A stretch of DNA of 36,524 nucleotides from a virus, in IMG/VR virus record IMGVR_UViG_3300025418_001413, positions 1 to 36,524 of that record. One strand, 5' to 3'. Shown one piece after another: positions 2,240 through 28,392 of this stretch. Both the position numbers and the translations under genes were made by a program. Numbering within the stretch: position 1 is the stretch's first letter; each line of letters opens with the position of its first letter. The notes under the pieces were generated by a model that saw nothing but the letters and a program-made list of their open reading frames with translations, was not told the DNA's origin and searched no databases.

Positions 2240-2240
2240 T

Positions 2241-9531: not shown

Positions 9532-9541
9532 ATACATCATG
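9527..9541 (+). promoter_or_regulatory. GGTAAATA-N-ATCATG start-proximal box, copy 1
   Basis: The 15-base string GGTAAATACATCATG ends on the gp25 start codon. Its TAAATA overlaps the stop of the preceding gene (TAA at 9529-9531). An almost identical string (one mismatch) ends on the start codon at 27638. No strong Shine-Dalgarno is present here. It could be a late promoter with a very short leader or a translation signal; the spacing from TAAATA to the ATG is short for a conventional promoter. Confidence 0.35.
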
Positions 9542-9913
9542 GCCACATTCATTGGATTCAACACTATCAATCAGTATAAAAAATTTACTGTGGTTGATTT
9601 TGACCTGATCAAAATAGACCTTCTGAATGCTTTTAACATCAGGCAAGGTCAGCTGGTGGGGCGTCCCAGTTTTGGTACCACACTCTGGAATAACTTGTTT
9701 GAAAATCAAACACAAGAAACATTGGCCAGTATCTATAACGAAATTCAACGAGTTGTTGCTGGAGATCCCAGAGTGTATGTTGACTCGCTACAGGTATTTC
9801 CGCAACAAAATGGTTTGTTGATACAACTCGCACTAAAAACAGTAGCTGGACAAGATGCTCAATTGCTGGCAATATTTTTTGATCAAGGTCAGGGTGTTGC
9901 CAGTTACGTTTAA
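9539..9913 (+). CDS. 25: Baseplate wedge subunit gp25-like
   Basis: A 124-residue protein, close to the 132 residues of T4 gp25. It shows the GPW/gp25 family layout: an N-terminal strand with DLIKIDLLNAFNIRQGQ, the motif VGRPSFGTTLWNNLFENQTQ, a helix (LASIYNEIQRVVAGDPRV) and a final strand pair ending LALKTVAGQDAQLLAIFF. In T4, gp25 is the wedge protein that contacts the sheath and starts its assembly together with gp6 and gp53. Gene order gp25-gp6 is as in T4-like phages. The start ATG 9539 lies 7 nt after the upstream stop, inside a motif shared with another start in this window. The ribosome-binding site is weak. Confidence 0.93.
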   Translation: MATFIGFNTINQYKKFTVVDFDLIKIDLLNAFNIRQGQLVGRPSFGTTLWNNLFENQTQETLASIYNEIQRVVAGDPRVYVDSLQVFPQQNGLLIQLALKTVAGQDAQLLAIFFDQGQGVASYV

Positions 9914-9958: not shown

Positions 9959-12900
9959 ATGGCCACAACTACGAGACAGACAGCAATATTTGGAGTTGAA
10001 GATTGGAAACGAATCTATCAGACCTACCGAGAAGCTGACTTTCAAAGTTATGATTTTGAAACCTTACGCAAGAGTTTTGTGGACTATCTGCGTTTGTATT
10101 ATCCAGAAACATTTAATGACTACATTGAATCATCAGAATTTATTGCCTTGTTAGACGTCATGGCTTTTATGGGCCAAAGTCTTGCATTTAGATCTGACCT
10201 GAACACACGTGAAAACTATTTAGACACTGCAGAACGCCGAGACAGTGTGATCAAATTGGCCAATTTGGTCAGCTATTCGCCGTTGCGTAACACCGAAGCG
10301 TCAGGATACCTCAAAGTATTCAGCGTCAAAACTACAGAAAATGTGCAAGATTACAACGGGGTTAACCTGGCCAATATCACAGTAAACTGGGCTGATCCCA
10401 GTAATCTCAACTGGCAAGAACAATTTACCAGTATTGTGAATGCAGCATTAGTCAACACCCAGCGTTTCGGCAAGCCAGGAAATGATCAGGTTATACTGGG
10501 AGTTGACACTCAGGAGTACACTATAAATTTGGTGCCAGGCTATATTCCTGTGATACCTTATACCGCAACCATTGATGGCATCAACATGCCATTTGAAGCA
10601 GTTAATGCTACCAGCAGTGGTCAAAACTACATTTACGAACCGCCTCCTTTGCCCAATGGACAATTCAATGTGTTGTTTAGAAATGATCAATTGGGATTCT
10701 CAAGTGCTAACACAGGATTTTTCTTCTATTTTAAACAAGGTGTGTTGCAAAATCAAGACTTTAATCTGCCAGAACGCATTGCTAATCGTCAGGTTAATAT
10801 CAATATCGAAGGTATCAACAACACTGATGTATGGTTGTATCAGTTAGACAACGTAGGAAACATAACCAGTTACTGGCAAATTGTACAGAGTGTTTATGCA
10901 GCGGCCATTGAACAATTGGCACCGGGTACAAGAGACATCTACAGTATAACCAGTGCTACCAACGATCAAATTATATTAAACTTTGGTGATGGCATATTCA
11001 GCACCATACCAGTGGGCACATTCCGTACATATGTACGTGCCAGCAATGGATTGACTTATATCATCAACCCAGAGGAAATGCAAAGTGTCAGCATTCCAAT
11101 CAGTTATGTTAGCCGTACCAATCAGATTGAAACCATAACATTTACTTGTGGTATCACCACTCCTGTGACCAATGCACAGGCTCGTGAAACTCTACAACAA
11201 ATCAAACAACGGGCACCTGCACAGTACTACACACAAAATCGCATGGTCAACGGTGAAGACTACACAAATTTTCCGTTTACACAATACAACAGTATTTTAA
11301 AAAGCAAGGCACTAAATCGTGCAAGCATTGGTACCAGTCGGTATCTTGATCTTGTTGACGGTACTGGAAAATATTCCAGCACAAATATATTTGCGGCTGA
11401 TGGCGCACTATATGAAGCAAACACATTACCAGCATTTCAATTTTCGTGGTTGACTATTCCAGATATTTCCGACGTGGTTTATAATCAAATCAGTCCGTTG
11501 TTGCTAAAAGCTGGACTACAACAATTTTATTATGCCAACTTTACTCGTCCTGACTTGTCAGTATTAAATTATACCTGGCATCAAAGCACAGTAATTACAA
11601 ATGAAACCACTGGATATTTTCAAAATTCTGCAGGAGTTCCAGTACCCATTGGGACTTATGCCAGTAACAATGCCAAGTACATAACTGAAAGTAGTTTGGT
11701 TAAATTTGTTCCGCCCAGTGGTTATTACTTCAACGCTGAAAATCAGCTGGTGGTAGGTTCGCCAGGCCAAGCAGGAGATAAATTATCTATCTGGGCCAGT
11801 CCCACTGCTGTGTATCTTGCTGGCACTGCCAATGGCTACGGCAATTTACCATCGGGTGTGGGTCCAGTTGTGTTGAATAATTTTGTACCCACTGGTGCTA
11901 TACCTACTCAAGTTATTCCTGTTTTTGTAACAGATATCCCTGTAAGCGTTCGTCAAAGTATTGTGAATCAGATCTATCTAAATCAAAACTTTGGCATTGG
12001 TTACAACAACATAACTGCCACATGGTATATCATAACTGCCAACAATCTGGCTGCTAATGCTACATTCAGTTTGGCCAATCAACAGAGCACTGCCGGTACC
12101 AATAGTGACGCTTCTTGGCTGATACAATGCACTACTACTGCACCTGGTCTAGCCAACTACACAGTAGTTTCAAGAAGCCTGGATTATTATTTTGCCAGTG
12201 TTATAGACACAAGATTTTTCTTTTATACCAATCAACCAATCTATGATTCACGCACAGGCACTGTGGTAAGAGACTATGTGAATGTATTAAAGGTCAATAG
12301 TCAACCTGACAGCAATTATCCATTGGCAGGAGACAATATTTTGACCATCATTGATCAACCTGTGTTAAGTGATGGCCTAGTTGATGACTTTCAAGTACTG
12401 GTTAGTTTTGCTACCACACCCGGCGATCTGATACCAATTAACCCAGATTTCTTCAATGATATAGTTGCTCCTGCGGTTAACCCTAACCACAAATTGGTAT
12501 TCTTACAACAAACAGTTGATTTTGACAATCTACAAAGATATTTGTTGGTCGCGCCGGGCACAGTCAACAGTGATTATGCCACAGTTGGAGCGATTGAACT
12601 AGCTATGTCACAGTACAATCTTGGTCAAGTGTTTTATGCCTATCAAGATCAGGTATTTTACACGCTAACTGTTAACACTGCTGGTAACACTGTGTTAGTA
12701 GTAAATTCAACTTATATTGCCTATACTGGGCGTCAGAGTTTGTATTTCCAATACAGACACAATTCACCATTGACCAGCAGGATAGATCCTGGATCAACTA
12801 ATATCATTGACATATATATTGCTACCAATGCCTACTATACTGCCTATACCAATTGGTTGTATGATTCAACAGGTACAGTACCATTGCCGTCGGCCCCCAC

Positions 12901-13372
12901 AATTGATGATTTGACCACTGCTTATGTAGGATTGCAAAATTATAAAATGATATCTGACAACATGATATTAAATTCAGTGCAGTTCCAGCCCTTGTTTGGC
13001 AGCAAAGCAGACCCTGCATTGAGAGCCACTATCAAGGTCATACAGTCAATTCAAAGCACTGCCAGTATTAATGAAATTAAAAATTTGGTTGTAGCCAACA
13101 TGAATGCATATTTTGATATAGCAGTATGGGACTTTGGGCAAACATTCTATTTTTCAGAATTGGCTGCATACATACATCAGCAAATAGGCGATGTAGTCAG
13201 TTCAGTGGTATTAGTTCCACTGAACCCACAAAAGAGTTTTGGCGATCTATACGAAATAAGATGCGCACCAAATCAAATTTTTGTCAATGGAGCCACAGTC
13301 AATGACATACAGGTCATAACTGCATTGACCAGCACAAATCTACAGACTGCCCCTGGTAGCGGAGTAATTTAA
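9959..13372 (+). CDS. 6: Baseplate wedge subunit gp6-like (baseplate J-type), enlarged
   Basis: A 1137-residue protein. The N-terminus contains the gp6-type helical region (DFETLRKSFVDYLRLYYPE, FIALLDVMAFMGQSLAFRSD, NYLDTAERRDSVIKLANLVS). The baseplate-J core follows: a FGDGIFSTIPVGTFR motif near residue 342 and RAPAQYYTQNRMVNGEDYTN near 418. The C-terminal part (NAYFDIAVWDFGQTFYFSEL) matches the gp6 wedge end. In T4, gp6 dimers form the inner iris that holds the wedges together. T4 gp6 has 660 residues; the extra length here is mostly beta-rich Asn/Thr/Tyr-rich segments between about residues 510 and 1000. It starts after a Shine-Dalgarno AGGAAG and ends in a TAATG overlap with the giant gene, so gp6 and that gene are probably coupled. 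Confidence 0.9.
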   Translation: MATTTRQTAIFGVEDWKRIYQTYREADFQSYDFETLRKSFVDYLRLYYPETFNDYIESSEFIALLDVMAFMGQSLAFRSDLNTRENYLDTAERRDSVIKLANLVSYSPLRNTEASGYLKVFSVKTTENVQDYNGVNLANITVNWADPSNLNWQEQFTSIVNAALVNTQRFGKPGNDQVILGVDTQEYTINLVPGYIPVIPYTATIDGINMPFEAVNATSSGQNYIYEPPPLPNGQFNVLFRNDQLGFSSANTGFFFYFKQGVLQNQDFNLPERIANRQVNINIEGINNTDVWLYQLDNVGNITSYWQIVQSVYAAAIEQLAPGTRDIYSITSATNDQIILNFGDGIFSTIPVGTFRTYVRASNGLTYIINPEEMQSVSIPISYVSRTNQIETITFTCGITTPVTNAQARETLQQIKQRAPAQYYTQNRMVNGEDYTNFPFTQYNSILKSKALNRASIGTSRYLDLVDGTGKYSSTNIFAADGALYEANTLPAFQFSWLTIPDISDVVYNQISPLLLKAGLQQFYYANFTRPDLSVLNYTWHQSTVITNETTGYFQNSAGVPVPIGTYASNNAKYITESSLVKFVPPSGYYFNAENQLVVGSPGQAGDKLSIWASPTAVYLAGTANGYGNLPSGVGPVVLNNFVPTGAIPTQVIPVFVTDIPVSVRQSIVNQIYLNQNFGIGYNNITATWYIITANNLAANATFSLANQQSTAGTNSDASWLIQCTTTAPGLANYTVVSRSLDYYFASVIDTRFFFYTNQPIYDSRTGTVVRDYVNVLKVNSQPDSNYPLAGDNILTIIDQPVLSDGLVDDFQVLVSFATTPGDLIPINPDFFNDIVAPAVNPNHKLVFLQQTVDFDNLQRYLLVAPGTVNSDYATVGAIELAMSQYNLGQVFYAYQDQVFYTLTVNTAGNTVLVVNSTYIAYTGRQSLYFQYRHNSPLTSRIDPGSTNIIDIYIATNAYYTAYTNWLYDSTGTVPLPSAPTIDDLTTAYVGLQNYKMISDNMILNSVQFQPLFGSKADPALRATIKVIQSIQSTASINEIKNLVVANMNAYFDIAVWDFGQTFYFSELAAYIHQQIGDVVSSVVLVPLNPQKSFGDLYEIRCAPNQIFVNGATVNDIQVITALTSTNLQTAPGSGVI

Positions 13373-16300
13373 TGGCCACAGTTCGTTCAGTTGATTTTCT
13401 ACCAGAAATATTTCAAACACCAGTAAACAAACAGTTTTTGGCAGCTACCTTGGATCAATTGGTTCAAGAACCTCGATTCAAAAAATCACAAGGATTTATT
13501 GGACAAAAAGTTGGGCCTGGCGTCAATGCCAATGATCAATATGTAATTGAACCCACAAAAAGTCGCAATGACTATCAGCTTGAACCAGGTGTGGTTCAAA
13601 TTGACCCTACTGACTCAAAAACAGTTGTTGATGTTATAACCTATCCAGGATTAACAGATGCAATTACACTGCAAGGCGGTGTCACGGACAATGCAGATTA
13701 TTTGTATACCAGTGACTACTATACCTGGGATCCGTTTGTTGATTTTGACAAATTTGTAAACTATGCACAGTACTATTGGTTACCCAATGGTCCAATGCCT
13801 GTGGATGTGTCTGCCACTGGTGTACCAACCACTGATAACTTCACAGTAACACGTGCCAATGGTGTTTATACTTTCAGCACCTATGCTGGCAATAATCCCA
13901 CTTTAACTTTGGTCAAAGGCGGCAGTTACACATTTAATGTTGCACAAAATACCACAGAAACCATAACATATCGTGTGACCAACAACGGCACAAGTGCATA
14001 TGTAATTAATCAAGAATCAAACCCCACATTGACACTGGTTCGTGGCAACACCTACTATTTTAATCTTTCACTCACAGGCGCGTTTCCTTTCTACATTAAA
14101 ACTATTGCTAGCCTGGGAATTGTAAACATATATTCTGATGGAGTTATAAACAACGGTGCCAGCGACGGTCAGATCATATTCACGGTACCACAAGATGCAC
14201 CAGACACTTTGTACTATTGCAATCCTATAGAATTTAATCTGCAAGGACAGTTTAGTATCATTGGCGCAACACCGGGTACTGGCAATGATTTTTGGATTCA
14301 ATCCGATCCTGGTGTGAACGGGCAGATACCTGCTACTCCTAATATCAGCAGCAGAACTGTGCTGGGTGTGACCAACAACGGTATTGATCTTGGCACTGTG
14401 ACATTTGATGTGCCGCTCAGTGACGCACAGAGTTTTTATTACAACTTGACTCCACTTCCATTGAACAACGGTACAGTTGATCTTATTTCAACTACTCTGA
14501 AATTTGATCAAGTGAATAACCAATTTCTTGACAATTTTGTTCAGGCCAATCCTGATGGCATTGATGGCATAACAAATTTAAATGGTCGCACGGTTGTTTT
14601 TACTTCTACACAGGGATGGGATATTACGACTCCTTTTGATCCGTTACTGACTGGGCAAAATGAACAACCTGGTAGTTTTGACAGTTTACCATTTGATCAA
14701 ACTACTTTTATTACAGATACAGCACAACAATACAGCGTGTGGAGGATACAGTATCAAACTGATTCAGGTGGGCGTGTGTACTTGGCATTGACCAGCGTTG
14801 CACCTGTACCAGATTTAGACAAATTTACTATTTTGTTTGGCAATCAATGGGCAAGCACACAGTGGTACAAAGATGCCAACGGCTATTTTGAACAAATACC
14901 ACTGCTGACTGCGGCACGCAGTGTGTTATGGTACCAGGACGGAACAGATCCAAATATTTTTGGTCGCATTGATTTGATTGATCAAACATCTGCTAGCATA
15001 TTAGATATTAACAAGATTATTGGACAAAAAACATATACCAGTCCCAATGGTGTGACATTTACCAATGGTATGCAGGTGGTATTTCGTGGCACAACAAATC
15101 CATCCAGTTACGAAAACAACTACTACTATGTCGAAGGTGTCGGCACTGCAATTCAGTTGCTGCCAGTTACAAATTTCAGCACACCAGAGCCTCTGGTTCC
15201 TGACTATCTTACAATAAATCGAGCCAGTGGCGATTTGAATCCGTGGTCTCGTAGCAACAGTTGGTTCCAGGTCGATGTTATTACCCAATCAGCTGCTTAC
15301 AATAATACTGTGCCAGTGCTGGACAATAATTATCGCGCTCGCAGACCTATTTTGGAATTCCGTGCAGGAACAAGACTGTTTAATTTTGGTACTGAAGGTA
15401 AGCCGCCGGTGGATATCATCGACTTTTCACAAACAGATGCATTGAGAACTGTGAACGGTACTATTGGGTTTGGCACAGATGGTTATCAGCTGGTCAATGG
15501 TAGTAGAGTTATTTTTGCAGGCGATCTTGATCCAGTGGTTAGACGCACAGTTTATCAAGTCAGCTTCATAGTGCCAGACACTGTACCTCCGCTGATTCCA
15601 GAACCACTGATCAATTTGATTCCTACAACTGACAGCCCTGCACTGGTTGATCAAAGCGTGTTGTGCTTGAATGGTAACACTTTGAAAGGTCAAAGTTTTA
15701 GATACAACGGTGTCAATTGGATTGAAGAACAACAAAAAATCAGTGTAAATCAGCCGCCGCAATTTGATATCTATGATGCCAACGGCGTCAGTTTTGGTGA
15801 TTCGGCAACTTATCCCAGCACCAATTTCAATGGCAGCTCATTGTTCAGCTATGCAGTAGGATCTGGCCCTGCTGATTTGGTTCTTGGATTTCCGTTGACC
15901 TACTTGAGTCTGACCAACATTGGCGATATTGTTTTTGATAATAATTTGTACGCCGATTCGTTCAACTATACTATAAACAATGCTGGTCAAACAGTACCAT
16001 TGAGTTCTGGATTTGTAAGACAATACAATAGTCGACTAACCTATCAACGAGAAATTGGATGGCAAACTGCAATAACTCAGAGTTTGGTTCGCCAGCAATT
16101 TCAATTTACCTACACTGGCTCACCTGTGCAGTTGGACATTGCAGTTAGCACAAACACTGTGGTACCAGCAGTGCAAGTTTTTATCAATGCCACATTCCAG
16201 GAGTCATTCAACTATAGAGTCAGTGTGGGAACCAATACCACCACAATCACCTGGTTAACAGTGTACAATCCAGGAGATTTGATTGAAATACAAGTACTCA

Positions 16301-19300
16301 GTGATCAAGTCAGTTCGCAAGGATTTTTCCAAGTTCCAATCAATTTAGAAAACAATCCCTTAAACAACAACAGCACTCAATTTACATTAGGCACAGTGCG
16401 CAATCATTACAGTACTATTGCACAAAATCTAATTGGATTACAAGGCCCTGTAATTGGTGCCAACAACACTAGAGATCTTGGTAACATTGTTCCGTATGGT
16501 CTACAGATACTGCAACAAAGCTCGCCACTGACACTGGCTGGCTATTTCATGCGAGATCCCAATTATGATATATTTGCCAGTTTAGACTTTAACAGTCGCG
16601 AATATATCAAATTCAAATCGCAATTGTTGACCACAGTGATCAGCAATGACTACGGAACAATGACTATTCCTGAAATATTAGACTCAGCCATTGCACAGAT
16701 CACTGCAGGCAGAACCAGTTTAAATTCGTTCTACTGGTCAGACATGTTGCCCACTGGCACAACATTTGTTTCAAATTCTACAACAGTATCTCAAATAACA
16801 ACATCAGTGTTTAACACAGTACAGATGTATAATTTCACTGAGTCTAATTATTTAGGACTATTGGTATATGTCAACAATGTTTTATTAGTAAGAAATTATG
16901 ATTATGTAGTATCTACTGATAGTCCGGTGCTTACTATAACTGTACCGTTAAACGTTGGTGACGTTGTTACTATTAACGAATACAGCAACACTGTTGGAAA
17001 TTTTGTGCCTAATACTCCTACTAAATTAGGATTGTATCCAAAATTTAAGCCTGAAATTTTTTATGATCCTAACTATCTAAATCCAACCTTAGTAATACAA
17101 GGACATGATGGTAGCATTACTGTTTCATATGGCGATTTTAGAGATCAAATTTTATTAGAGTTTGAAAAAAGAATCTATGACAATTTAAAAAATGACGGCA
17201 ATCCTGTGCCACTAACTGCTGAAGATGTCATACCTGGATTTTTTAGAACCACAAATTACACACAAGCTCAAATAACTCAGATACTTGGTGAAAGTTTCTT
17301 AAGTTGGGTTGGACAAAACAAAGTAGATTACAAGACACAAAATTACATTGCGTCGAATCCTTTTACCTACAACTACAGCACATCTGGTAACAAGATCAAC
17401 GAAGAACCGTTGCTGGGTGCATGGCGTGGTATCTATCGATATTTTTATGATACAACAAGTCCCAATTTAACCCCTTGGGAAATGCTAGGACTCACTGAAC
17501 AACCCACATGGTGGACTGCACGTTATGGCCCTGTGCCTTATACCAGTGATAACTTGGTGCTTTGGGGCGATCTAGAAGCTGGGTACGTGGCAGACCCTGT
17601 GGCTCCTTATATAGATACTCGATATGCACGTCCAGGATTGACCACTGTTATTCCTGTGGACTCTCAAGGCGAGTTATTGGCGCCATTGGTCAGTGTGGTA
17701 GGACTTTACAATCCCAATGACTGGCGCAAGAGCTGGGTAGTCGGCGACGGCGGCCCAACAGAAGCTGCTTGGTGGTCAAGTTCTAGTTACCCTTTTGCAG
17801 TCATGAGACTGTTGGCACTTACCCGTCCGGCTGAATTTTTTAGCTTGTTTGTGGACAGAGATTTATACAGATACAATGTAGAATTTGATCAATATCTCTA
17901 CAACGGTCGTTATAGAATAAATGCCAATGAAGTGCAAGTATACGGAAACGGTGTTAGCAAAGCCAGCTATATCAACTGGATCATTGATTATAATCAACAG
18001 TTAGGGATGAATTCCTCTACAGCGCTTACACAAGATTTGTCCAATCTTGACGTGAGACTGTGTTATAGAATGGCGGCATTTACAGACAAAAAATATGCCA
18101 ATATCTATTTGGAAAAGTCTAGTCCAGAAAGTCAAAATGCCAGCTTGTTGTTGCCACCTGAAAGTTGGAATTTATTATTGTATGCTAATCAACCATTTAG
18201 TGAAATTGTTTATAGCTCACTGATCATTCAAAAACAAGAGACAGGATTCAGCGTGTATGGTTATAGCAATGTGCAACCGTACTTTCCAATTGTGGCTAGT
18301 GCAGTTAACGGTCCTACTCAAACGGTCAGTGCTGGTGGTGCAACAGTAACGGTACCTGCACAATATACCAATAACATAGTAAATGTTCCTTACGGATACA
18401 ATTTTAGTAATTCTACAATTGTTGTGGATTTTATTCTAAGTTATGGTGTATTTTTGACCAGCCAAGGCATGGTATTTGATGGCGTACAAAATGGTTATAC
18501 GTTGAATTGGGCACAGATGGCTCAAGAATTCTTGTACTGGAGTCAACAAGGTTGGGCACCCGGCACAATTATCAATTTAAATCCTGGTGCCACCAAAATC
18601 ACAGTGTACAAACCAGGCGCAGTGGTGGCCGCAGTCACTAGTTTGACACCAGAGAATCAGTTGACTGATCAAAACAAACAGGCAATACAATCGCGTGATT
18701 TGATCATACAAAGATATGGTGACTCTTTTACAATATCCAGCGCCACAAATCAAACCATTTCGTACTTGGATTTAAAATTCACTGACTATGAAAACATGGC
18801 AGTACTTGATAATGTAAGCATTTTCAATGACTTGATCTATGATCCTACCACCGCCGAACGTCAAAATCGTGTGGCCTGGAAAGCCAGCATCAGTAGTGAC
18901 TGGGATGGAACACTAAATGCACAAGGTTTTATTTTAAATCAAAACAATGTTATTCAGTGGCAACCCAACGTAAAATACACCAAAGGTGAAATAGTAATTT
19001 ACAAGAACAATTACTGGAGTGCGTTAAACGTTGTACAACCTGCCACAACATTTGATTACGCAAACTGGGTCAAAAGCAACTATGCCATGATTGATCAAGG
19101 CTTGTTGCCCAATATTCCTAACAAAGCAGACCAACAGGCTAATAGCTACAATATCTATGATGCTAACTTGGCCAGCGACAATGACTTGCTGGCATTTGGA
19201 CTTACTGGATTCAGGCCGAGACAGTACATGGTTGATTTGAATCTTGATGATGTCAGTCAGGTACAAATTTACCAAGGCTTCATTGGCAGCAAAGGAACAA

Positions 19301-22300
19301 GACTCAGTGCTGAATTGTTTACCAGAGCAAACTTGGGAAGAGAAACTGGTCAGTATGCCATATATGAAAATTGGGGAATCTTGGTAGGCACATACGGAGC
19401 CAACGCCAATCGCAGTTGGTTTGAAATAGTTCTTAATCAAGCATTGCTGACTGCTAATCCAAGCACAGTTCAAATTATTCAACCAGGCCAAACAAGCCCA
19501 GCTGACCAAACAATTTATTTGAGCAATTTGTGGAGTGAAAGTTACGCCATACCCACAACAGATATATTGCCAACCACATATGGAACAAATCTTGATACTG
19601 CATTGCCCTCAGCAGGATATGTCAATATCAATGATGTAGATATCACAGTATTCAACCTCAATAATCCTGCCAATCTTGATGCCAGTATCAATACCATTGG
19701 CAATGGCACAGTGGTCTGGGTGGCACAAATCAATAGCTACGACTGGGGAATTTACAAATGTGTTCAGGTCTCTGGACAAATGACATTGTTGAGTAACAAT
19801 TTGAACAGTACCAGTGTGGTGCAATTCAATCACACACACGGTCTGGCCATTGGCAATACAATTATTATAAAGTATTTCAATGATGGCGTAAACGGTGTGT
19901 ACCGAGTATTGAGTGTGCCGTCACCTACCACAGTGGTCATTGCATTTGCATTCACCAACACAAATCAAAGTCAGCTCACGGGTACTGGACTGGTATTTTA
20001 TTTACAAACCACTCGCGTATCACAGGCCAGCGACATTCAAAATTTGCCTTATGTAAATGATCTTGTTCCAGGTGCATTGGCTTGGGTAGACAACGACGGT
20101 GCAGGTCATTGGGAAGTTTTACAAAAAACTACACCATTTAACGTGGCTGATTTGCTGGAACCTTATGAACTATTTGCTAATTCTGGATTTGGTACCAGTG
20201 TGAGTCAAACACAAGATCACTACAGTGTTTTGGTAGGCAGTCCTGGGGCTAGTTCTGGTTCAGGGTTGATTTATACCTATCGAAGATCCAACATAGTGCC
20301 CTATACAGACAATGTTATGCTGTCTCTCAATGCCACTGGAACTGCTGGGTATGGAAACAGTGTGATGTTTGGCAGTAAAAATTGGGCAATAGCCGGTGCC
20401 AATGCCAGTAACAGCAATGCTGGATACGCAACTGTGATATATCAAATTCCAGGCACAAATGATTACTTGCAAACACAACTGTTAGTAGCACCTGATCAAA
20501 ATTTTACCAGCATTAGTTTTGGATCTGCAGTGGCTATCAGTCAAGACGAACATTGGATGTATATCAGTGCACCTGGAGCCAACACAGTGTATGCATTTGG
20601 ACGTGTTGATGTGCCCACAGATTCAATCACATATACTACCAATGGCGTGCAAACTGCATTCAATTGGGCAAACTCAATCCAGATCAATCCAGCTTATCCA
20701 GATCAATTAATAGTACTTGTCAACAATGTATTAGCTATACACAACATTGATTATTACATTAACTCAAATGTGGTACAATTCTATACTGCTCCGGCTGCCA
20801 ACCAGCCACTGACAATTGTACGCAGACAGGCTGCACAAATTGATCGACAAGTATATTACAACATCAAACAAAACAGTACATCTGGAGTGGGCACTGGTGC
20901 CGCATTTACCATAGTTGATACTCGTGGAGTATATAATCCTACACTCACTGCTGGTGGGTCTGCCTATGCGGTTGGTGATACATTGACAGTAAATTACACA
21001 CAGATTTGTCCCAACGGATCTAGTGCAAATAATTTGGTTATAACAGTGACTGCGGTTGTTGCAGGTGCTATTTCTACATTTACTTTTTCTGGCAGTGGAG
21101 TTACTACAAATAACAATTTTGCATTGGTCAACAGTTTGTACACAGTGAGCAACATATATTCATTTACAGTACGTGTTAATGCTGTGTTGCAAAGACCCTA
21201 TATTGATTACACATTTGGGTCAGGATTATTGACATTTGTTACCATTCCAGCCGCAGGTGCCGACATTGAAGTAACTGCTAGCACATATTGGCAATATATC
21301 TCTGCAATCACTGGCACTGGACTTAGCGGAGATGCTGAGTTTGGAACCAGTATATCCACATCCACTGATGGTAGACAACTGGTAGTGGGCTGCGTAAACG
21401 ACACCGCTGGTACAGTGACAGATGCAGGAGCAGTATACATATATGATCGCAGTGTTGTAAATTATCAAATTACCACGGTGTCTCAGACCACATATGTAAT
21501 TCCGGGATCATTCACGGCACCTGTTGCAGTGTTGTTGAACAACACATATTTGACCAACAGTGCTCAATATATCAATGGACAGTACACTATCAGTGGCAGC
21601 AATGTCGTGTTAAACTCAACAGTTACATTAACCATTGGGGACACACTGACCATTGAGACAAATCAATTTAGTTTGGTTGAAAAAATCACTGCAAAAATGC
21701 CAGTTGCTGCATCGGCATACGGAACCGCAGTAACAATATGCCCTAATAATTGTAGTGTGTACATTGGAGCACCGCAGAGTAGCCAGTCTGGATCACCAGG
21801 ATCAGGCATGGTTGAACGTCAAGTCAATCAAAGCAGAATTTACGGAGTAACTACCTCTACTGTAGCCAATCCTGCGCTGACCGCTGGTGACACTATTAGA
21901 ATTAACGGATTTGAAATTGCTATACCGTCTAGTCCTAACAATAATATAGCAGGACTGGTTGCGGCAATCAATGCTGCCAATGTACCAAATGTAATAGCAT
22001 CAACTACTCCTGATGTGATTTTTGTTGGAGACGGAGTTACTCAAGTATACAATGTAGGATCTGTGTATTCTGCTGCAGACTCTTATACCACAGTGGTGTA
22101 TGTGAATTCTGTGTTACAAACTTCAGGAGTAGATTACAGCTACAATAATACCACACAACAAATAATTTTTGCAGTGGCACCAGCTGCGAAATTTTCAATT
22201 GTTGTAACGTCAGGAAGAATCACTGTGTCTGTGATCAATTCTACAGCAGCAACACCGTTTAACAAACTCAGTGTATTGCCAGGACTAGTTAACAGTGCAT

Positions 22301-25300
22301 TTGACACCATTGGATTCAATACCTATGTATGGACACAAGATATTTTAAGCCCAAGCCCAACTGACTATGCGTATTTTGGTACCAGCATTGCTGTAAATTC
22401 TGGAGCAATAAATCTCATAGTTGGTGCACCCAATGGCAATGTATATGAACGAGAAATATTCGACGGTGGCACCACGTACTTTGATGAAAGAAGCACAGTA
22501 TTCTCCACAACCATAGTCAATAATGGCGTAGCATATACATTTGATTATTTGCCCAGTGCTTCCGTGTCTCTGTCAAATCCGGGAGCATTTGTATTTGGTC
22601 AACAAATCTATAACACTGGTATAGGCACCGACGATCAGTATGGTAATTCAGAGGCTGGTGTTGATGTTGATAAAAACTTTGGTTTTGCAGTAAACTATGT
22701 GAATGGCAGGCTGTTGATAGGTGCACCTGGTAGTGATACAAATGGGTATGGTGAAGCTTACGTGTTTGATAATCCCACTGGTGCACTAGCATGGGAAGTA
22801 AAATACTATCAACAACCAGTGGTAGACACAAACTTATTGGACTCTGTTTACAGCTACGATAAATTGTTGAATAGTACACAAACATATTATGATTTTATTG
22901 ACCCGCTTCAAGGAAAAATACTAGGTGCTGCAAGACAAAACATAGACTACATTGGTGCAGTAGATCCTGCAAATTACAATCAAGGATCAGTGCACAATGT
23001 GGGAACCAGTTGGGGCGCCACCCATGTGGGAGAAATTTGGTGGGATACCAACCGCGTGAGATTTATCAATCCCAATCAAGATGACATTGTGTATGCTAGT
23101 AAACGTTGGGGACAATTATTTCCAGGCAGTAATGTAGACGTTTATCAGTGGATAGAAAGTTCAGTGGCACCTGTAAATTACACAGGGCAAGGGACCCCAC
23201 TCAGCACAATCAGCTATACTGTGGCAACCACTGTGGATGTAAACGGAATTTTTGTTACAAATTATTACTTCTGGGTAAGAGGAATATCTACAATAAACAC
23301 CGCAGTAGGAAAAACTCTAAGTACTACAGGTATTGCTGGTTATATTTCAAACCCCATTGGTAGTGGTATTCCGTATATAGCTGGATTAAATGCCAGTACT
23401 ATTGCGATTTATAATGCCAACAGTTTATTGTCAGCTCAAGATACTATATTACATGTTGGATATGATCGGCAAGCAACCACGGCTGATGTGCACGTTGAGT
23501 ATGCTTTTATTGCCGACGGTCGCCCAGATAGTTTTTTAAATGCCAATTTGTATCGCAAATTACTAGACAGTTTTTGCGGAGTAGATACGCTAGGTAATCT
23601 TGTGCCGGACCCTGCACTAAGTCCTGGACAACAGTACGGAGTTCAATTTAGACCTCGTCAAAGCATGTTTTCTGACAGATTTGCGGCATTGCAAAATTAT
23701 TTGACACGAGCAAATAATGTGTTAGCACAATATCCTATCTCAGAAACTCGTAGTTTTAATTTACTCAATAGTTCTGAATCAAAACCAGCACCTAATACAG
23801 GAGCATGGAACATGCAGGTACCTGATCTCACTGTATTGGGCTATCAAAATCTTGCACAAGTACCGTTAGGCTATTTGTATCTGGTTGATTCAGATTCCAG
23901 TCAAAATGGTCGTTGGACCATCTATCAGGTCGCGCAAGGCTCTGCACCTGGACAACGAGTGTTAGATCTTGTACGCATACAAAATTACGATACTCCGTTG
24001 TATTGGAACTACATCACCTGGTATTTGCCAGGCTACAACAGCTCAACACAGATCACAGTCACGGTAGCAAATTATGCAGATCTCAGCACACTAACATTGG
24101 CAACTGCACCCATTGGTAGTAGTGTAAAAGTCACCACCAACAGTCAAGGTAAATTTGAAATATATCAAAGAACCATCACCGGATGGACACGCGTAGCTCT
24201 ACAAGACGGAACTATTGCATTTGATTCAGTGCTATGGAACTATGCATTAGGCCCATACGGATTTGATGCTGAAGTGTTTGATGCACAGTATTTTGACCAA
24301 GAACCAGTAATTGAAACTCGTCAAATTATTCGTGCGTTAAATGAAGAAATTTATGTTGGTGATCTGTTGATAGAGCGTAATCAATCATTGATCTTGATGT
24401 TTAACTTTGTTTACAGCGAATTTACTTCGCCAAATTGGTTGATAAAAACCAGCTACATTGATGTGGATCATAATCTACAAGCCTTGTTGCCATACCAGCT
24501 GTATCAACCACAAAATCAAACTTTTGTTGAAGATTATATACAAGAAGTCAAACCGTATCACACGCAGATACTAAACTTCAATCTCATTTATGACGGCATG
24601 GATACCTATGCAGGGTCGTTAACAGATTATGATGTGCCAGCCTACTGGGATACTGATTTAGAAATTCCGCAGTTTGTCAGCCCTGTGTTGACTCCTTACA
24701 CTTCATCATTGAGCACCGTGGAAAATTTCAACAGTGATGCAGCTGCAAATGCTGCCATTTGGATGAAGTTTCCTTGGAATCAATGGTACAACAACTACTT
24801 GTTAGAAATTCAAAATGTGGTAGTGGTCAACGGAGGCTCTGGGTATGATTATAACAATCCTCCTACAGTAACTGTGTCTGGTACGTGTATTACGCCTGCC
24901 ACAATGACTGCTACAGTAAACAGTTCAGGAATAATCACGGCCATAAACATTATCACTCCGGGAGCAGGATACAGTACAACAGCACAAATTACATTGACAT
25001 CTACTACAGGATCTGGTGCAGTTATTGTGGCTCAAATGGGCAATGGATTAGTAAGATCAATTCGCACAGTGATAAAATATGATAGATATGAATACCAATC
25101 TTCTGTGGTGGCATGGCAACCAAATGTAGTCTACTCAGAAGGCACACTGGTAAGGTATGTAAATGTGGTTTGGAGCGCCAACGCTACTCAATCATCTGCA
25201 CAATTTCTACCCAATGAATGGACATTGGTAAATGCGGATTCTCTCAGTGGTGTTAACAGGACCATGGGATTCTATACTCCTACTGCTAATCAGCCTGGAT

Positions 25301-27621
25301 TAAGTTTGCCATTATTGATTTCTGGAGTAGAATATCCTGGAGTACAATTAACTGCTCCTAGTTACAGACAGAACACTGGATTTGATGTTGGTAATTTTGA
25401 TATCAACCCCTGGGACAACTATTTTATCAGTCCTGCAGGATTTATCACTTACGATCCTGGTATTTTGGATGTTGAATATAGTAGTTCTTATTTGGATCTA
25501 TATCTTGGTACAAGACCCAGTGATATTAATGTGGCTGGCGGAGCCTATGTTGATGCATGGAGCAGCTATGCGCCAGAAGAATTGGTACCTGGGGCAGAAT
25601 TTGACACATTGGATTTCAGAGTTTATACCACTCCCGGAGCAGATTGGATAGGACAAGGATTTGGTTTTCCGATCTATAGTTTAAAATACACTTACGATCC
25701 TGCCACGCCCACACAGTCGTTCCAGGGATTGTTGCCATACCCTATGGTACTGCTTACATTTAATGCAACTACCGGACTAGGAGTAGAGCCAGATTCTTAT
25801 GACTGGGTCAACTATACTTTTACATTGACTCAGGGTGTTAACGCAGGTGATACCATACAGGTTGCAGTTGTTGCCACTGGCGGCGGCAATCAGTTGTACT
25901 CTAATACCTATGTGGGATCTGACATTGGCAACAGCATACTGATACCTTTTAACATAGATTTAATCAGTGAATTTGTTATCTATGACGGCGAACTTGGGCC
26001 ATTGGTCTTAGGAGTTGATTATACCTATGCTGCATATTCGTTGACTCAAACTCAGATAACTTTTACTACTACCTACGGTACCACCGACAGAATTAATTTG
26101 ACTTGTTTGGGATATGCACCAGTTGGTGCAACCCACAGTTGGAGTTTGCCAGTTTTTGAAACCATCATAATCACTGATTCCTCACAACTCACATACTCAT
26201 TGACCAACAGTTTGCAAGGCACTAATCCTGCCAATCTTGTAGTACTAAGAAATGGTGCCAGAGCCCGCCCAGCAGCAGGTATCAGCTATGTGAGTGATGG
26301 CGCACAAACAGTATACAATTTACCCAATCCAGGCGACTACAGTCAAGCTGCAATAACAGACGAAGATGTGGCTGTTTACGCAAACAGCACTGCGTTGGTT
26401 GTGAATGTTGACTTCGTGATTGATTCTTATGTTGCAGGTACCCCTCGTACTATAACATTAACATCGTCAACTGCATTTGGTACAGTGATATTAATTTCAG
26501 TAAGAAACAATGCACAATATTATGTGGTAGGAGATCAACTAACCTTCCAACCATCAGCAGGACTAAGTCCTCAAGTAGGAGATATCATTGAAATCATTAC
26601 CTGGAATGATACCTCTGAACAACAATTACTCACGCAGGTATTTGTAGGACCAACCACTGAAGGTGTACAAGTTGGAGAAGGCTTTGATTCCACTGAATTT
26701 GATTCTGGTACTACCAATTTTGAATCTGGCAGTTTTGATTATGGTGCCAGTGTGTTAGTACAAACAAACACATTTGATACTGGTCGCGAAATCTTAAATC
26801 CTGAACGAATTTTGGTAACATTGAATGGACGATGGTTATTCAATGGCAATGGATACACAGTTTCTGGATCAACAGTGACACTAACTGGTTCAATCATTGG
26901 CACAACAGATGTAGTTGTGATCACTGATTTTACACAGTATGTTGTGCCAGAAGCCATGTCATTCCGTATATTCCAGGACATGCGTGGAGCACAAGCCACA
27001 TACAGAATAACTCCTAATACCACTACAACACTAGCACAACCTTTGGCTGTCACTGACGATATTGTTTATGTGACTGATGCCACTGCATTGATTGAACCAG
27101 ATTTAGCAGCTAATATATGGGGAGCATTAACAATAGACGGCGAAAGAATCATGTATCGAGTTAGAAATACCTCAGACAACACTGTAAGCAGTTTGTTGAG
27201 AGGTACTGCTGGTACTGCAACTGCAGCTCACAGTGTAGGAGCCACAGTTTACAACATTGGTCCTGGCAACTTATTACCTGTGGAATACCAAAATTATATA
27301 GTTGCTAACAACATTTTGGCTGACGGATCTAACACAGTTTTTGTAGCTACTCAAATTGATATTTCTCAAGAACCCAGTGATATCAAAGATCGCACAGTTG
27401 AAGTGTATGTTGGCGGCACTTTACAAACTGCTGGTTATAGCATAACCAATGATAATCCTGTAACAGTGACATTTACTACTGCTCCTATTGCTGGTGCAGA
27501 AGTAACTATTTTGGTGCGCAGAGGGGTAACTTGGTATGCGCCCGGAGCAGGAACTGCCAGCAACGGTGTACCGTTACAAGAAACCAACACACCAGCCGCA
27601 AGATTCCTGCGTGGGTTATAA
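13372..27621 (+). CDS. Giant baseplate/virion protein in the gp7 position, multi-modular (4749 aa)
   Basis: One uninterrupted frame of 4749 residues, starting in a TAATG overlap with gp6. Conserved blocks recalled from the long post-gp6 protein of marine T4-like phages appear in order. They are an N-terminal block (VNKQFLAATLDQLVQEPRFK, residues 18-37), HDGSITVSYGDFRDQILLEF near 1244, and PWEMLGL with WWTARYGPVPYTSDNLVLW near 1370-1400. LDDVSQVQIYQGFIGSKGT follows near 1954, then YDFIDPLQGKILGAARQN near 3172 and GEIWWDTNRVRF near 3220. Inserted modules are a cupredoxin-like domain (217-297), two carbohydrate-binding-like modules (about 1861-1900 and 3912-3952), FG-GAP-type blades (2273-3135), and repeated modules of the form 'V-x-VN-x-VL...DY'. 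Its place suggests the outer wedge (gp7 role) with surface-binding decoration. T4 gp7 is about 1032 residues. The frame is certain; the gp7 assignment is by position. Confidence 0.75.
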   Translation: MATVRSVDFLPEIFQTPVNKQFLAATLDQLVQEPRFKKSQGFIGQKVGPGVNANDQYVIEPTKSRNDYQLEPGVVQIDPTDSKTVVDVITYPGLTDAITLQGGVTDNADYLYTSDYYTWDPFVDFDKFVNYAQYYWLPNGPMPVDVSATGVPTTDNFTVTRANGVYTFSTYAGNNPTLTLVKGGSYTFNVAQNTTETITYRVTNNGTSAYVINQESNPTLTLVRGNTYYFNLSLTGAFPFYIKTIASLGIVNIYSDGVINNGASDGQIIFTVPQDAPDTLYYCNPIEFNLQGQFSIIGATPGTGNDFWIQSDPGVNGQIPATPNISSRTVLGVTNNGIDLGTVTFDVPLSDAQSFYYNLTPLPLNNGTVDLISTTLKFDQVNNQFLDNFVQANPDGIDGITNLNGRTVVFTSTQGWDITTPFDPLLTGQNEQPGSFDSLPFDQTTFITDTAQQYSVWRIQYQTDSGGRVYLALTSVAPVPDLDKFTILFGNQWASTQWYKDANGYFEQIPLLTAARSVLWYQDGTDPNIFGRIDLIDQTSASILDINKIIGQKTYTSPNGVTFTNGMQVVFRGTTNPSSYENNYYYVEGVGTAIQLLPVTNFSTPEPLVPDYLTINRASGDLNPWSRSNSWFQVDVITQSAAYNNTVPVLDNNYRARRPILEFRAGTRLFNFGTEGKPPVDIIDFSQTDALRTVNGTIGFGTDGYQLVNGSRVIFAGDLDPVVRRTVYQVSFIVPDTVPPLIPEPLINLIPTTDSPALVDQSVLCLNGNTLKGQSFRYNGVNWIEEQQKISVNQPPQFDIYDANGVSFGDSATYPSTNFNGSSLFSYAVGSGPADLVLGFPLTYLSLTNIGDIVFDNNLYADSFNYTINNAGQTVPLSSGFVRQYNSRLTYQREIGWQTAITQSLVRQQFQFTYTGSPVQLDIAVSTNTVVPAVQVFINATFQESFNYRVSVGTNTTTITWLTVYNPGDLIEIQVLSDQVSSQGFFQVPINLENNPLNNNSTQFTLGTVRNHYSTIAQNLIGLQGPVIGANNTRDLGNIVPYGLQILQQSSPLTLAGYFMRDPNYDIFASLDFNSREYIKFKSQLLTTVISNDYGTMTIPEILDSAIAQITAGRTSLNSFYWSDMLPTGTTFVSNSTTVSQITTSVFNTVQMYNFTESNYLGLLVYVNNVLLVRNYDYVVSTDSPVLTITVPLNVGDVVTINEYSNTVGNFVPNTPTKLGLYPKFKPEIFYDPNYLNPTLVIQGHDGSITVSYGDFRDQILLEFEKRIYDNLKNDGNPVPLTAEDVIPGFFRTTNYTQAQITQILGESFLSWVGQNKVDYKTQNYIASNPFTYNYSTSGNKINEEPLLGAWRGIYRYFYDTTSPNLTPWEMLGLTEQPTWWTARYGPVPYTSDNLVLWGDLEAGYVADPVAPYIDTRYARPGLTTVIPVDSQGELLAPLVSVVGLYNPNDWRKSWVVGDGGPTEAAWWSSSSYPFAVMRLLALTRPAEFFSLFVDRDLYRYNVEFDQYLYNGRYRINANEVQVYGNGVSKASYINWIIDYNQQLGMNSSTALTQDLSNLDVRLCYRMAAFTDKKYANIYLEKSSPESQNASLLLPPESWNLLLYANQPFSEIVYSSLIIQKQETGFSVYGYSNVQPYFPIVASAVNGPTQTVSAGGATVTVPAQYTNNIVNVPYGYNFSNSTIVVDFILSYGVFLTSQGMVFDGVQNGYTLNWAQMAQEFLYWSQQGWAPGTIINLNPGATKITVYKPGAVVAAVTSLTPENQLTDQNKQAIQSRDLIIQRYGDSFTISSATNQTISYLDLKFTDYENMAVLDNVSIFNDLIYDPTTAERQNRVAWKASISSDWDGTLNAQGFILNQNNVIQWQPNVKYTKGEIVIYKNNYWSALNVVQPATTFDYANWVKSNYAMIDQGLLPNIPNKADQQANSYNIYDANLASDNDLLAFGLTGFRPRQYMVDLNLDDVSQVQIYQGFIGSKGTRLSAELFTRANLGRETGQYAIYENWGILVGTYGANANRSWFEIVLNQALLTANPSTVQIIQPGQTSPADQTIYLSNLWSESYAIPTTDILPTTYGTNLDTALPSAGYVNINDVDITVFNLNNPANLDASINTIGNGTVVWVAQINSYDWGIYKCVQVSGQMTLLSNNLNSTSVVQFNHTHGLAIGNTIIIKYFNDGVNGVYRVLSVPSPTTVVIAFAFTNTNQSQLTGTGLVFYLQTTRVSQASDIQNLPYVNDLVPGALAWVDNDGAGHWEVLQKTTPFNVADLLEPYELFANSGFGTSVSQTQDHYSVLVGSPGASSGSGLIYTYRRSNIVPYTDNVMLSLNATGTAGYGNSVMFGSKNWAIAGANASNSNAGYATVIYQIPGTNDYLQTQLLVAPDQNFTSISFGSAVAISQDEHWMYISAPGANTVYAFGRVDVPTDSITYTTNGVQTAFNWANSIQINPAYPDQLIVLVNNVLAIHNIDYYINSNVVQFYTAPAANQPLTIVRRQAAQIDRQVYYNIKQNSTSGVGTGAAFTIVDTRGVYNPTLTAGGSAYAVGDTLTVNYTQICPNGSSANNLVITVTAVVAGAISTFTFSGSGVTTNNNFALVNSLYTVSNIYSFTVRVNAVLQRPYIDYTFGSGLLTFVTIPAAGADIEVTASTYWQYISAITGTGLSGDAEFGTSISTSTDGRQLVVGCVNDTAGTVTDAGAVYIYDRSVVNYQITTVSQTTYVIPGSFTAPVAVLLNNTYLTNSAQYINGQYTISGSNVVLNSTVTLTIGDTLTIETNQFSLVEKITAKMPVAASAYGTAVTICPNNCSVYIGAPQSSQSGSPGSGMVERQVNQSRIYGVTTSTVANPALTAGDTIRINGFEIAIPSSPNNNIAGLVAAINAANVPNVIASTTPDVIFVGDGVTQVYNVGSVYSAADSYTTVVYVNSVLQTSGVDYSYNNTTQQIIFAVAPAAKFSIVVTSGRITVSVINSTAATPFNKLSVLPGLVNSAFDTIGFNTYVWTQDILSPSPTDYAYFGTSIAVNSGAINLIVGAPNGNVYEREIFDGGTTYFDERSTVFSTTIVNNGVAYTFDYLPSASVSLSNPGAFVFGQQIYNTGIGTDDQYGNSEAGVDVDKNFGFAVNYVNGRLLIGAPGSDTNGYGEAYVFDNPTGALAWEVKYYQQPVVDTNLLDSVYSYDKLLNSTQTYYDFIDPLQGKILGAARQNIDYIGAVDPANYNQGSVHNVGTSWGATHVGEIWWDTNRVRFINPNQDDIVYASKRWGQLFPGSNVDVYQWIESSVAPVNYTGQGTPLSTISYTVATTVDVNGIFVTNYYFWVRGISTINTAVGKTLSTTGIAGYISNPIGSGIPYIAGLNASTIAIYNANSLLSAQDTILHVGYDRQATTADVHVEYAFIADGRPDSFLNANLYRKLLDSFCGVDTLGNLVPDPALSPGQQYGVQFRPRQSMFSDRFAALQNYLTRANNVLAQYPISETRSFNLLNSSESKPAPNTGAWNMQVPDLTVLGYQNLAQVPLGYLYLVDSDSSQNGRWTIYQVAQGSAPGQRVLDLVRIQNYDTPLYWNYITWYLPGYNSSTQITVTVANYADLSTLTLATAPIGSSVKVTTNSQGKFEIYQRTITGWTRVALQDGTIAFDSVLWNYALGPYGFDAEVFDAQYFDQEPVIETRQIIRALNEEIYVGDLLIERNQSLILMFNFVYSEFTSPNWLIKTSYIDVDHNLQALLPYQLYQPQNQTFVEDYIQEVKPYHTQILNFNLIYDGMDTYAGSLTDYDVPAYWDTDLEIPQFVSPVLTPYTSSLSTVENFNSDAAANAAIWMKFPWNQWYNNYLLEIQNVVVVNGGSGYDYNNPPTVTVSGTCITPATMTATVNSSGIITAINIITPGAGYSTTAQITLTSTTGSGAVIVAQMGNGLVRSIRTVIKYDRYEYQSSVVAWQPNVVYSEGTLVRYVNVVWSANATQSSAQFLPNEWTLVNADSLSGVNRTMGFYTPTANQPGLSLPLLISGVEYPGVQLTAPSYRQNTGFDVGNFDINPWDNYFISPAGFITYDPGILDVEYSSSYLDLYLGTRPSDINVAGGAYVDAWSSYAPEELVPGAEFDTLDFRVYTTPGADWIGQGFGFPIYSLKYTYDPATPTQSFQGLLPYPMVLLTFNATTGLGVEPDSYDWVNYTFTLTQGVNAGDTIQVAVVATGGGNQLYSNTYVGSDIGNSILIPFNIDLISEFVIYDGELGPLVLGVDYTYAAYSLTQTQITFTTTYGTTDRINLTCLGYAPVGATHSWSLPVFETIIITDSSQLTYSLTNSLQGTNPANLVVLRNGARARPAAGISYVSDGAQTVYNLPNPGDYSQAAITDEDVAVYANSTALVVNVDFVIDSYVAGTPRTITLTSSTAFGTVILISVRNNAQYYVVGDQLTFQPSAGLSPQVGDIIEIITWNDTSEQQLLTQVFVGPTTEGVQVGEGFDSTEFDSGTTNFESGSFDYGASVLVQTNTFDTGREILNPERILVTLNGRWLFNGNGYTVSGSTVTLTGSIIGTTDVVVITDFTQYVVPEAMSFRIFQDMRGAQATYRITPNTTTTLAQPLAVTDDIVYVTDATALIEPDLAANIWGALTIDGERIMYRVRNTSDNTVSSLLRGTAGTATAAHSVGATVYNIGPGNLLPVEYQNYIVANNILADGSNTVFVATQIDISQEPSDIKDRTVEVYVGGTLQTAGYSITNDNPVTVTFTTAPIAGAEVTILVRRGVTWYAPGAGTASNGVPLQETNTPAARFLRGL
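20188..22780 (+). repeat. Seven FG-GAP-like propeller blades inside the giant protein
   Basis: Seven segments share the pattern [FY]-G-x-[AS]-[VI] followed by a strand ending in a Gly-Ala/Ser-Pro-type turn and a Tyr-rich strand. They start near 20188 (FGTSVSQ...VLVGSPGAS), 20350 (YGNSVMF...AIAGANAS), 20518 (FGSAVAI...MYISAPGAN), 21340 (FGTSIST...LVVGCVND), 21718 (YGTAVTI...VYIGAPQ), 22375 (FGTSIAV...LIVGAPNGN) and 22678 (FGFAVNY...LLIGAPGSD). Seven is the usual blade number of an integrin-type propeller. Other modules interrupt the series between blades 3-4, 4-5 and 5-6. Confidence 0.6.
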
Positions 27622-27640: not shown

Positions 27641-27787
27641 ACTGAAAATAAAACGCCAACACAACCTATATCAGACACAAAAACCACTGCTAAACGTCCA
27701 GACGAACAAGGAACTATTTCGGTTGAAGGCTTTGTGAAGATTTTTGATCCCAACACAAAGGAAAAATTTGTGGAGAAAAGAGCATGA
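27638..27787 (+). CDS. 49-residue protein sharing the N-terminal motif of the next gene
   Basis: MTENKTPTQPISDTKTTAKR is a polar, probably disordered lead. It is followed by VEGFVKIFDPNTKEKFVEKR and the stop. The second half matches the N-terminus of the next protein, IEGFVKIHDPNSGEILLDKK, so the two share an EGFVKI-x-DPN module. The ATG at 27638 is chosen over an in-frame upstream TTG that would overlap the giant gene. The stop overlaps the next ATG (ATGA), linking the two in translation. It may be a small structural or assembly protein, or a remnant of a duplication. I know no function for it. Confidence 0.7.
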   Translation: MTENKTPTQPISDTKTTAKRPDEQGTISVEGFVKIFDPNTKEKFVEKRA

Positions 27788-28392
27788 TTATTCAACCAGG
27801 CTTGGCCAAAATAGAAGGTTTTGTCAAAATACATGATCCCAACTCTGGGGAAATCTTACTTGATAAGAAAAATGCTATTCACTACGAAAACATCAGTATT
27901 TGTATGGCCAACATGTTGAGTGATAAAAATTTAGGCTATATATATCAAATGGCATTTGGCAACGGCGGAAGTGCAGTGGACCCTACAGGTGTTATCACTT
28001 ACCTGCCACCAAATACCACCGGACAAAATGCTGATCTTTACAACGAAACCTATTACAAAGTAGTAGATAACAATTCAGCTGCTGATACTGATCCTGCCAA
28101 TAATTATATAACTGTGTTGCACACATCAGGAAATGTATACACTGATATTGTGGTAACTTGTTTATTGGATTACGGTGAGCCGGCTGGACAACAGGCCTTT
28201 GACAACTCAACCAATTTTAATGGTGAATATGTTTTTGATGAACTGGGATTAAAGTGTTGGTTTGGAAGCTCGACTAATTTGCTACTGATTACTCATGTAA
28301 TATTCCATCCTGTGCAAAAAAGTCTAAATCGTCAAATACAAATTGATTATACCTTGCGTATCCAAACTTTGACTAATCTCAGCGCAGCATAA
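27784..28392 (+). CDS. Virion structural protein, baseplate/fibre-associated
   Basis: A 202-residue protein. It begins with the EGFVKIHDPN module and KNAIHYENISICMANMLSD. Then follow YIYQMAFGNGGSAVDPTG (a Gly-rich turn typical of fibre- and collar-associated phage proteins), ADLYNETYYKV, VVTCLLDYGEPAGQQAFDN, YVFDELGL, and a last strand set ending LITHVIFHPVQKS and IQIDYTLRIQT. I recall similar proteins between the giant post-gp6 gene and the tail fibres in marine T4-like phages. By gene order it occupies the place of T4 gp8/gp9, so a role as wedge or fibre connector is plausible, but I see no sequence match to either. It overlaps the upstream small gene by four bases. Confidence 0.6.
   Translation: MIIQPGLAKIEGFVKIHDPNSGEILLDKKNAIHYENISICMANMLSDKNLGYIYQMAFGNGGSAVDPTGVITYLPPNTTGQNADLYNETYYKVVDNNSAADTDPANNYITVLHTSGNVYTDIVVTCLLDYGEPAGQQAFDNSTNFNGEYVFDELGLKCWFGSSTNLLLITHVIFHPVQKSLNRQIQIDYTLRIQTLTNLSAA

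Follow-up and report, generated by a model that had tools for sequence, protein, structure and literature searches.

The giant gene, its neighbours and its relatives

We analyzed the whole of a 36.5-kb virus record (IMG/VR record IMGVR_UViG_3300025418_001413; 36,524 nucleotides, right end open), referred to here as the window, in which one open reading frame on the plus strand (13372..27621) encodes a protein of 4749 aa. The frame begins with ATG, is free of internal stops and occupies 39.0% of the window, confirming the initial annotation, which had described a single 4749-codon frame filling about 39 percent; the probability that one random frame stays open over 4749 codons at the local base composition is ~10^-133. 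The product matches phrog_10938, a family of virion structural proteins, over four stretches in PHROGs (E = 4.8e-301). The PHROGs category of this family is head and packaging rather than tail; among the jumbo-phage homologues, the family match was obtained for the window protein.

Directly upstream, also on the plus strand, are genes for a gp25-like (9539..9913) and then a gp6-like (9959..13372) baseplate wedge subunit, each matching a baseplate wedge family in PHROGs, with base 13372 common to the gp6 stop and the start of the giant gene. A gp53-like gene and a hub-like gene also lie upstream, and a 202-aa protein of phrog_11259 is encoded downstream (27784..28392, plus strand). The hub/spike-like protein (5339-6913) matched Phage_base_V at 1.7e-5, and a lysozyme domain was not found in it by Pfam at E 0.01, unlike in T4 gp5. 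Between the hub-like and gp25-like genes, an 872-aa ORF (6913-9531) matches phrog_773, annotated as major head protein, over residues 235-338 (4.7e-12), probably through a shared domain.

When 983 aa of framework sequence (aa 1155-2137) were used as a query, 60 of 50,697 phage records matched at E 0.01, and 58 of these 60 exceed 280 kb. A scan of viral contigs returned at least 583 relatives. We retained the 80 best loci, of which 54 carry a complete frame, running to 3371-5356 codons from stop to stop. In the shortest relative (L045) the frame terminates within framework block 4 although the contig continues, and the gene may be broken or split. gp6 lies directly upstream of the giant gene in all 54 complete loci from the best 80 of at least 583 and, by tblastn with the window gp6, in nine of ten named jumbo phages, including Vibrio 2.275 and RAS14; seven of the named phages have a baseplate wedge annotation on the gene immediately before the giant one. 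The gp7 position assigned initially, directly after gp6, therefore holds in the window and across these relatives, the exception being Salicola phage SCTP-2, in which the giant gene is ~92 kb away from gp6 and on the opposite strand. A homologue of the 202-aa protein immediately follows the giant gene in 53 of the same 54 environmental loci and in six of the ten named jumbo loci as fetched, and in SCTP-2 it stays with the giant gene, placing the pair away from gp6. We consider the 202-aa protein a likely partner of the giant protein; PHROGs lists phrog_11259 as of unknown function, and the protein had no match in the PDB at E 5.

The great size of the protein is already usual for jumbo phages of the RaK2/Atu_ph07/PA5oct type and hence is not new. 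Homologues sharing the framework follow gp6 in RaK2 (ORF070), 121Q (gp582), GAP32 (GAP32_230), CBB (CBB_236, 3340 aa), Atu_ph07 (gp180, 4449 aa), PA5oct (gp355, 3857 aa) and Phosso (294, 4555 aa); these seven span 3323-4555 aa and differ from the window protein in carrying other or fewer inserts, with no FG-GAP repeat found in them. Two cyanophages likewise encode giants after gp6, P-HM1 (4446 aa, annotated gp7) and P-SSM2 (gene 114, 5195 aa), which give weak BLAST matches to G modules of the window protein (P-HM1 down to E 3e-4) but whose framework is not recognizably homologous to it. The proteins at the same place measure 1032 aa in T4, 767 aa in Cr30 and 1016 aa in HTVC008M, and the window protein is 4.60 times the length of T4 gp7, as had been estimated. 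With a giant protein beside gp6 in nine of the ten named jumbo phages and in both cyanophages checked, the initial description of a gp7-position protein "turned into" a giant misleads where novelty is concerned.

The virion assignment agrees with the detection of homologues in particles. Mass spectrometry of CBB virions is reported to have recovered 21 unique peptides of CBB_236 at 7.72% coverage (PMC5259590), a protein that we identified as the 3340-aa homologue by its gene number and place after gp6, and the record note "ESI-MS/MS" accompanies both PA5oct gp355 and the PA5oct homologue of the 202-aa neighbour. In the main texts on RaK2 and Atu_ph07 we found no mass spectrometry result for this protein. 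Presence of the window protein itself in the virion would be predicted from these homologues. That the frame encodes a non-virion protein or arose as an assembly artefact is highly improbable given the detections in CBB and PA5oct virions; an artefact of assembly was rejected on the 54 relatives (from the best 80 of at least 583) that carry a complete frame on other contigs, mostly of like length.

Conserved framework blocks and variable inserts

We derived the anatomy of the protein from an alignment of 65 sequences comprising the window protein, the 54 complete environmental relatives and the ten named jumbo phages. Common to these is a framework of block 1 (aa 1-150; 13372..13821), block 2 (aa 550-1125; 15019..16746), block 3 (aa 1210 to ~1844; 16999..18903), block 3b, which contains a KG motif (aa 1915-2100; 19114..19671), and block 4 (aa 3150-3760; 22819..24651), all, like every other feature of the protein, on the plus strand. 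Variable stretches occupy aa 151-549 (13822..15018), ~1126-1209, 1845-1915, 2140-3150 and most of 3760-4749. Profiles trained here recognized ten A modules of ~65 aa, seven FG-GAP blades, two G modules and two CBM5/12-like modules, and gave no matches in nine other window proteins or in 30 shuffled copies. A modules are found at aa 906-976 (16087..16299) and aa 1140-1205 (16789..16986), and four occupy the C-terminal part (aa 4201-4716; 25972..27519); a G module of the GGxGY type lies at aa 3815-3883 (24814..25020). Two further PHROGs matches, one of aa 3812-3880 with phrog_460 (annotated head closure; 4.1e-9) and one of aa 2417-2513 with phrog_10330 (5.7e-5), we take to reflect the shared G and A modules.

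The proposal that conserved blocks are spaced by modules of several types is borne out by this comparison, in which the framework is kept across the 54 relatives and ten named phages while the inserts vary by lineage. The junction at aa 151-549 measures only 2-8 aa in six of the ten named phages (121Q, RaK2, GAP32, CBB, SCTP-2 and Vibrio 2.275). The junction at aa 2140-3150 measures 1011 aa here, 114-116 aa in 121Q, RaK2, GAP32 and CBB, 141-164 aa in the environmental relatives L082, L085 and L086, and 1425 and 1432 aa in Phosso and Atu_ph07, respectively; in Phosso it includes seven G modules and in Atu_ph07 eight, together with other sequence. At the level of sequence, the protein is thus a framework with inserts whose modules turn over. 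One relative (L077) carries ten G modules compared to zero to two in the other 53, all from the best 80 of at least 583.

Structure prediction in segments, suggested initially as a check, was successful for one insert (see below) and poor for framework block 3, whose model reached a pLDDT of 61.3 and a pTM of 0.36. Among the structural matches listed for this model, neither a wedge chain nor a gp7 chain was prominent, a result that means little at pLDDT 61, and a phiKZ baseplate chain appeared at Z 4.6 among pilins in the same matches. The sole row returned by the block 3 profile against PDB sequences, an enolase at E 0.52, was taken as chance.

A predicted integrin-like propeller and CBM5/12-like modules

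Within the variable junction before block 4, aa 2254-3144 (20131..22803) are confidently predicted to form an integrin-alpha-like, seven-bladed propeller with inserts (model of aa 2240-3420 from an alignment of 45 sequences; pLDDT 84.4, pTM 0.73). Seven FG-GAP blade motifs span aa 2272 to 3134 and were placed by our trained profile at 20185..20286, 20347..20445, 20518..20604, 21337..21450, 21718..21813, 22375..22491 and 22675..22773, the fourth also being recognized by Pfam; Pfam FG-GAP_2 matched above its cut-off over two stretches (3.8e-11). Profiles identified modules A-G-A between blades 3 and 4 (aa 2412-2655; 20605..21336), a single A module between blades 4 and 5 (21451..21717) and an A module plus unclassified sequence between blades 5 and 6 (21814..22374). 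When the model was compared with known structures by VIA-align, integrin entries made up all 50 matches listed, the best being alphaM/beta2 (Z 38.8, rmsd 2.5 A, 354 aligned, model residues 15-905). Global TM-scores in Foldseek were low, probably because of the inserts between blades, and the first Foldseek row was a portal-tail chain of cyanophage A4 (9k09_U, E 3.5e-9, TM ~0.1); the profile of this region gave no match to PDB sequences at E 0.1.

Among the 54 complete relatives from the best 80 of at least 583, seven blades were recognized in 35, six in 14, five in two and none in three, so that 51 of 54 carry at least five. Longer gaps in the six-blade relatives suggest that one blade was missed by the profile. 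Between blades 3 and 4, these relatives carry either A-A or A-G-A. The calcium motif DxDxDG, which stabilizes integrin blades, occurs in none of the seven blades here and in one of 339 blades in the same relatives. A slightly loosened pattern for the Cage motif was found in five of the seven blades here, with two blades lacking the motif proline, and in 303 of 339 blades in the relatives compared to 255 of 1695 shuffles.

A close parallel is the N-terminal propeller of integrin alpha, which has a like fold by the model and seven FG-GAP repeats; the fold is known from animals and bacteria, and some integrins also carry an extra domain, the I domain, inserted between propeller blades (PMC3192720). 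In contrast to integrin alpha, the window propeller has its inserts between blades 3-4, 4-5 and 5-6 and not 2-3, is without DxDxDG and sits inside a phage virion protein. Searches of the open-access PMC library brought up no description of such a propeller inside a phage virion protein, and the plugging of an integrin-type propeller into a virion protein of a jumbo phage looks new.

None of the ten named jumbo phages had a recognizable FG-GAP blade in its giant protein. Such repeats are nevertheless encoded elsewhere in Phosso, with 55 matches that fall mostly in two genes (3162 and 3692 aa), and in Atu_ph07, where gp320 has four matches; the whole records of the eight other named phages contained none. 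Their presence in other Phosso and Atu_ph07 proteins, and not in the gp6-adjacent giants, suggests that the propeller is a mobile domain. The two FG-GAP-rich Phosso giants are genes 107 and 108 (L242 2339-22979), and the remaining Phosso matches fall in smaller genes. The conserved framework is present without the propeller in some relatives, from which it would follow that the framework works without it.

Two CBM5/12-like modules were recognized by profile at aa 1862-1902 (18955..19077) and aa 3915-3953 (25114..25230). The match to CBM5/12 in Pfam scored 20.2 bits, below the 26.2 cut-off. A model of aa 1858-1905 (model residues ~664-711) gave structural matches at Z 3.6-7.6 and rmsd 1.0-4.6, mostly to chitin-binding domains and phage modules, where a Z below 8 can mean only a common arrangement; the best Foldseek E was 0.049, with none under 0.04. 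Among the phage modules that this model resembles are those of the Milano baseplate/receptor complex and of 7-7-1 tail fibres. By alignment, CBM-like modules occupy different framework sites in different lineages, at aa 1862 here, at the equivalent of aa 1658 in Phosso, Atu_ph07 and PA5oct, and at that of aa 1623 in SCTP-2.

These observations bear on whether the modules are purely structural, spacing or bracing a large tail tip and binding nothing outside the virion. Most close relatives (best 80 of at least 583) retain the modules and the blades are missing their calcium sites, both of which would fit such a function; however, FG-GAP blades go unrecognized in three of the 54 relatives from that set and in the giant proteins of all ten named phages, and receptor-binding complexes of phages repeatedly include CBM-like folds. 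On balance, we regard a purely structural function as unlikely.

Relation to T4 gp7 and a proposed role in the virion

In the T4 wedge, gp7 connects gp6 to gp8, gp9 and gp10. It is described as a peripheral wedge protein with one monomer per wedge and six per tail (PMC3004832). Although the window protein holds the same gene position, sequence homology to T4 gp7 was not detectable. The five framework blocks reached hhalign probabilities of at most 4.2% against T4-type gp7, and other T4 proteins (gp6, gp8-gp13, wac and gp53) none above 1.1%; this comparison is not very sensitive, as the positive control gp6 picked the right T4 protein of ten at only 29.6%. BLASTP, profile-profile comparison, shuffles and reciprocal hmmsearch yielded no reliable match to T4 gp7.

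The giant protein could still be a true, much enlarged homologue of T4 gp7, a possibility that we view as doubtful. It would accord with the gene order gp25-gp6-giant and with the gp7 annotation of the P-HM1 protein at the same place, and T4 gp7 can be linked to the N-termini of small-phage and cyanophage proteins, its match to Caulobacter phage Cr30 covering aa 646-830 (80.8%), that to P-SSM2 aa 721-813 (70.9%) and that to cyanophages aa 731-808 (53.6%). Block 3b alone is matched at the KG motif by cyanophage, pelagiphage and combined profiles, each scoring above 100 of 100 column-shuffled versions, at probabilities of just 4.6-7.0% and with cyanophage and pelagiphage leading by half a point. 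Against such descent stand the low probabilities of the five blocks, the 68 of 100 shuffles that score as well as T4 gp7 itself at block 3b, and the match of pelagiphage HTVC008M to T4 gp7 at only 8.2%. In addition, the combined profile preferred another place when given the whole of block 3, the expected pairs at the KG site failed to emerge from reciprocal hmmsearch across sets of 265 and 580 ORFs, and block 3b was picked after the KG motif had been seen. The KG signal, which failed the hmmsearch specificity test, is suggestive of gp7 descent at most. The homology implied in the initial annotation is not supported.

We favor, at a probability of roughly 0.58, a reading in which the giant protein is a conserved virion scaffold, probably located beside the wedge, that carries exchangeable binding or docking modules. 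The framework and its near-constant 202-aa neighbour would most likely form a part of the virion adjoining the baseplate wedge, with framework loops taking up whole domains. The FG-GAP propeller would be the largest plug-in in this lineage, itself holding small modules between its blades, and the CBM5/12-like and repeated A and G modules would be further plug-ins. These modules most likely extend outward at the tail tip, where they would bind glycans of the host surface or serve as docking points for tail fibres; module exchange would then alter what is bound. The surface character and binding domains proposed initially are thus plausible. We infer the baseplate location, exposure, binding and copy number of the giant protein, and a wedge role with six copies per tail, as in T4 gp7, would likewise be an extrapolation.

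This reading is weakened by the head and packaging category of phrog_10938, which is a category and not a test but speaks in no way for the baseplate, by the separation of the giant gene from gp6 in SCTP-2, and by the poor block 3 model, in which no wedge protein appeared. Absence of DxDxDG and the CBM match, which falls below the Pfam cut-off and has no Foldseek E under 0.04, likewise count against it. That the giant protein is a fixed baseplate receptor-binding head, in which a wedge-built propeller presents exchangeable modules between its blades, seems to us unlikely; if it were so, host recognition would evolve by module swapping within one polypeptide and not through separate tail-fibre genes.

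Many jumbo phages encode a giant virion protein behind gp6, and the anatomy seen here, a conserved framework whose defined loops take up whole domains, provides a testable logic for these proteins. An integrin-type propeller with inter-blade inserts in a phage virion protein would also widen the range of this fold. The predicted propeller (aa 2254-3144) offers a foldable fragment for ligand or structure work, and natural relatives with and without the propeller form a ready comparison.

Further downstream in the window (31111-35862), two genes appear glycosyltransferase-like by eye, with nothing returned for them by Pfam, one other is weakly sulfotransferase-like and another weakly radical SAM-like, both under the Pfam cut-off. 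A radical SAM gene is also present soon after the giant gene in Phosso.
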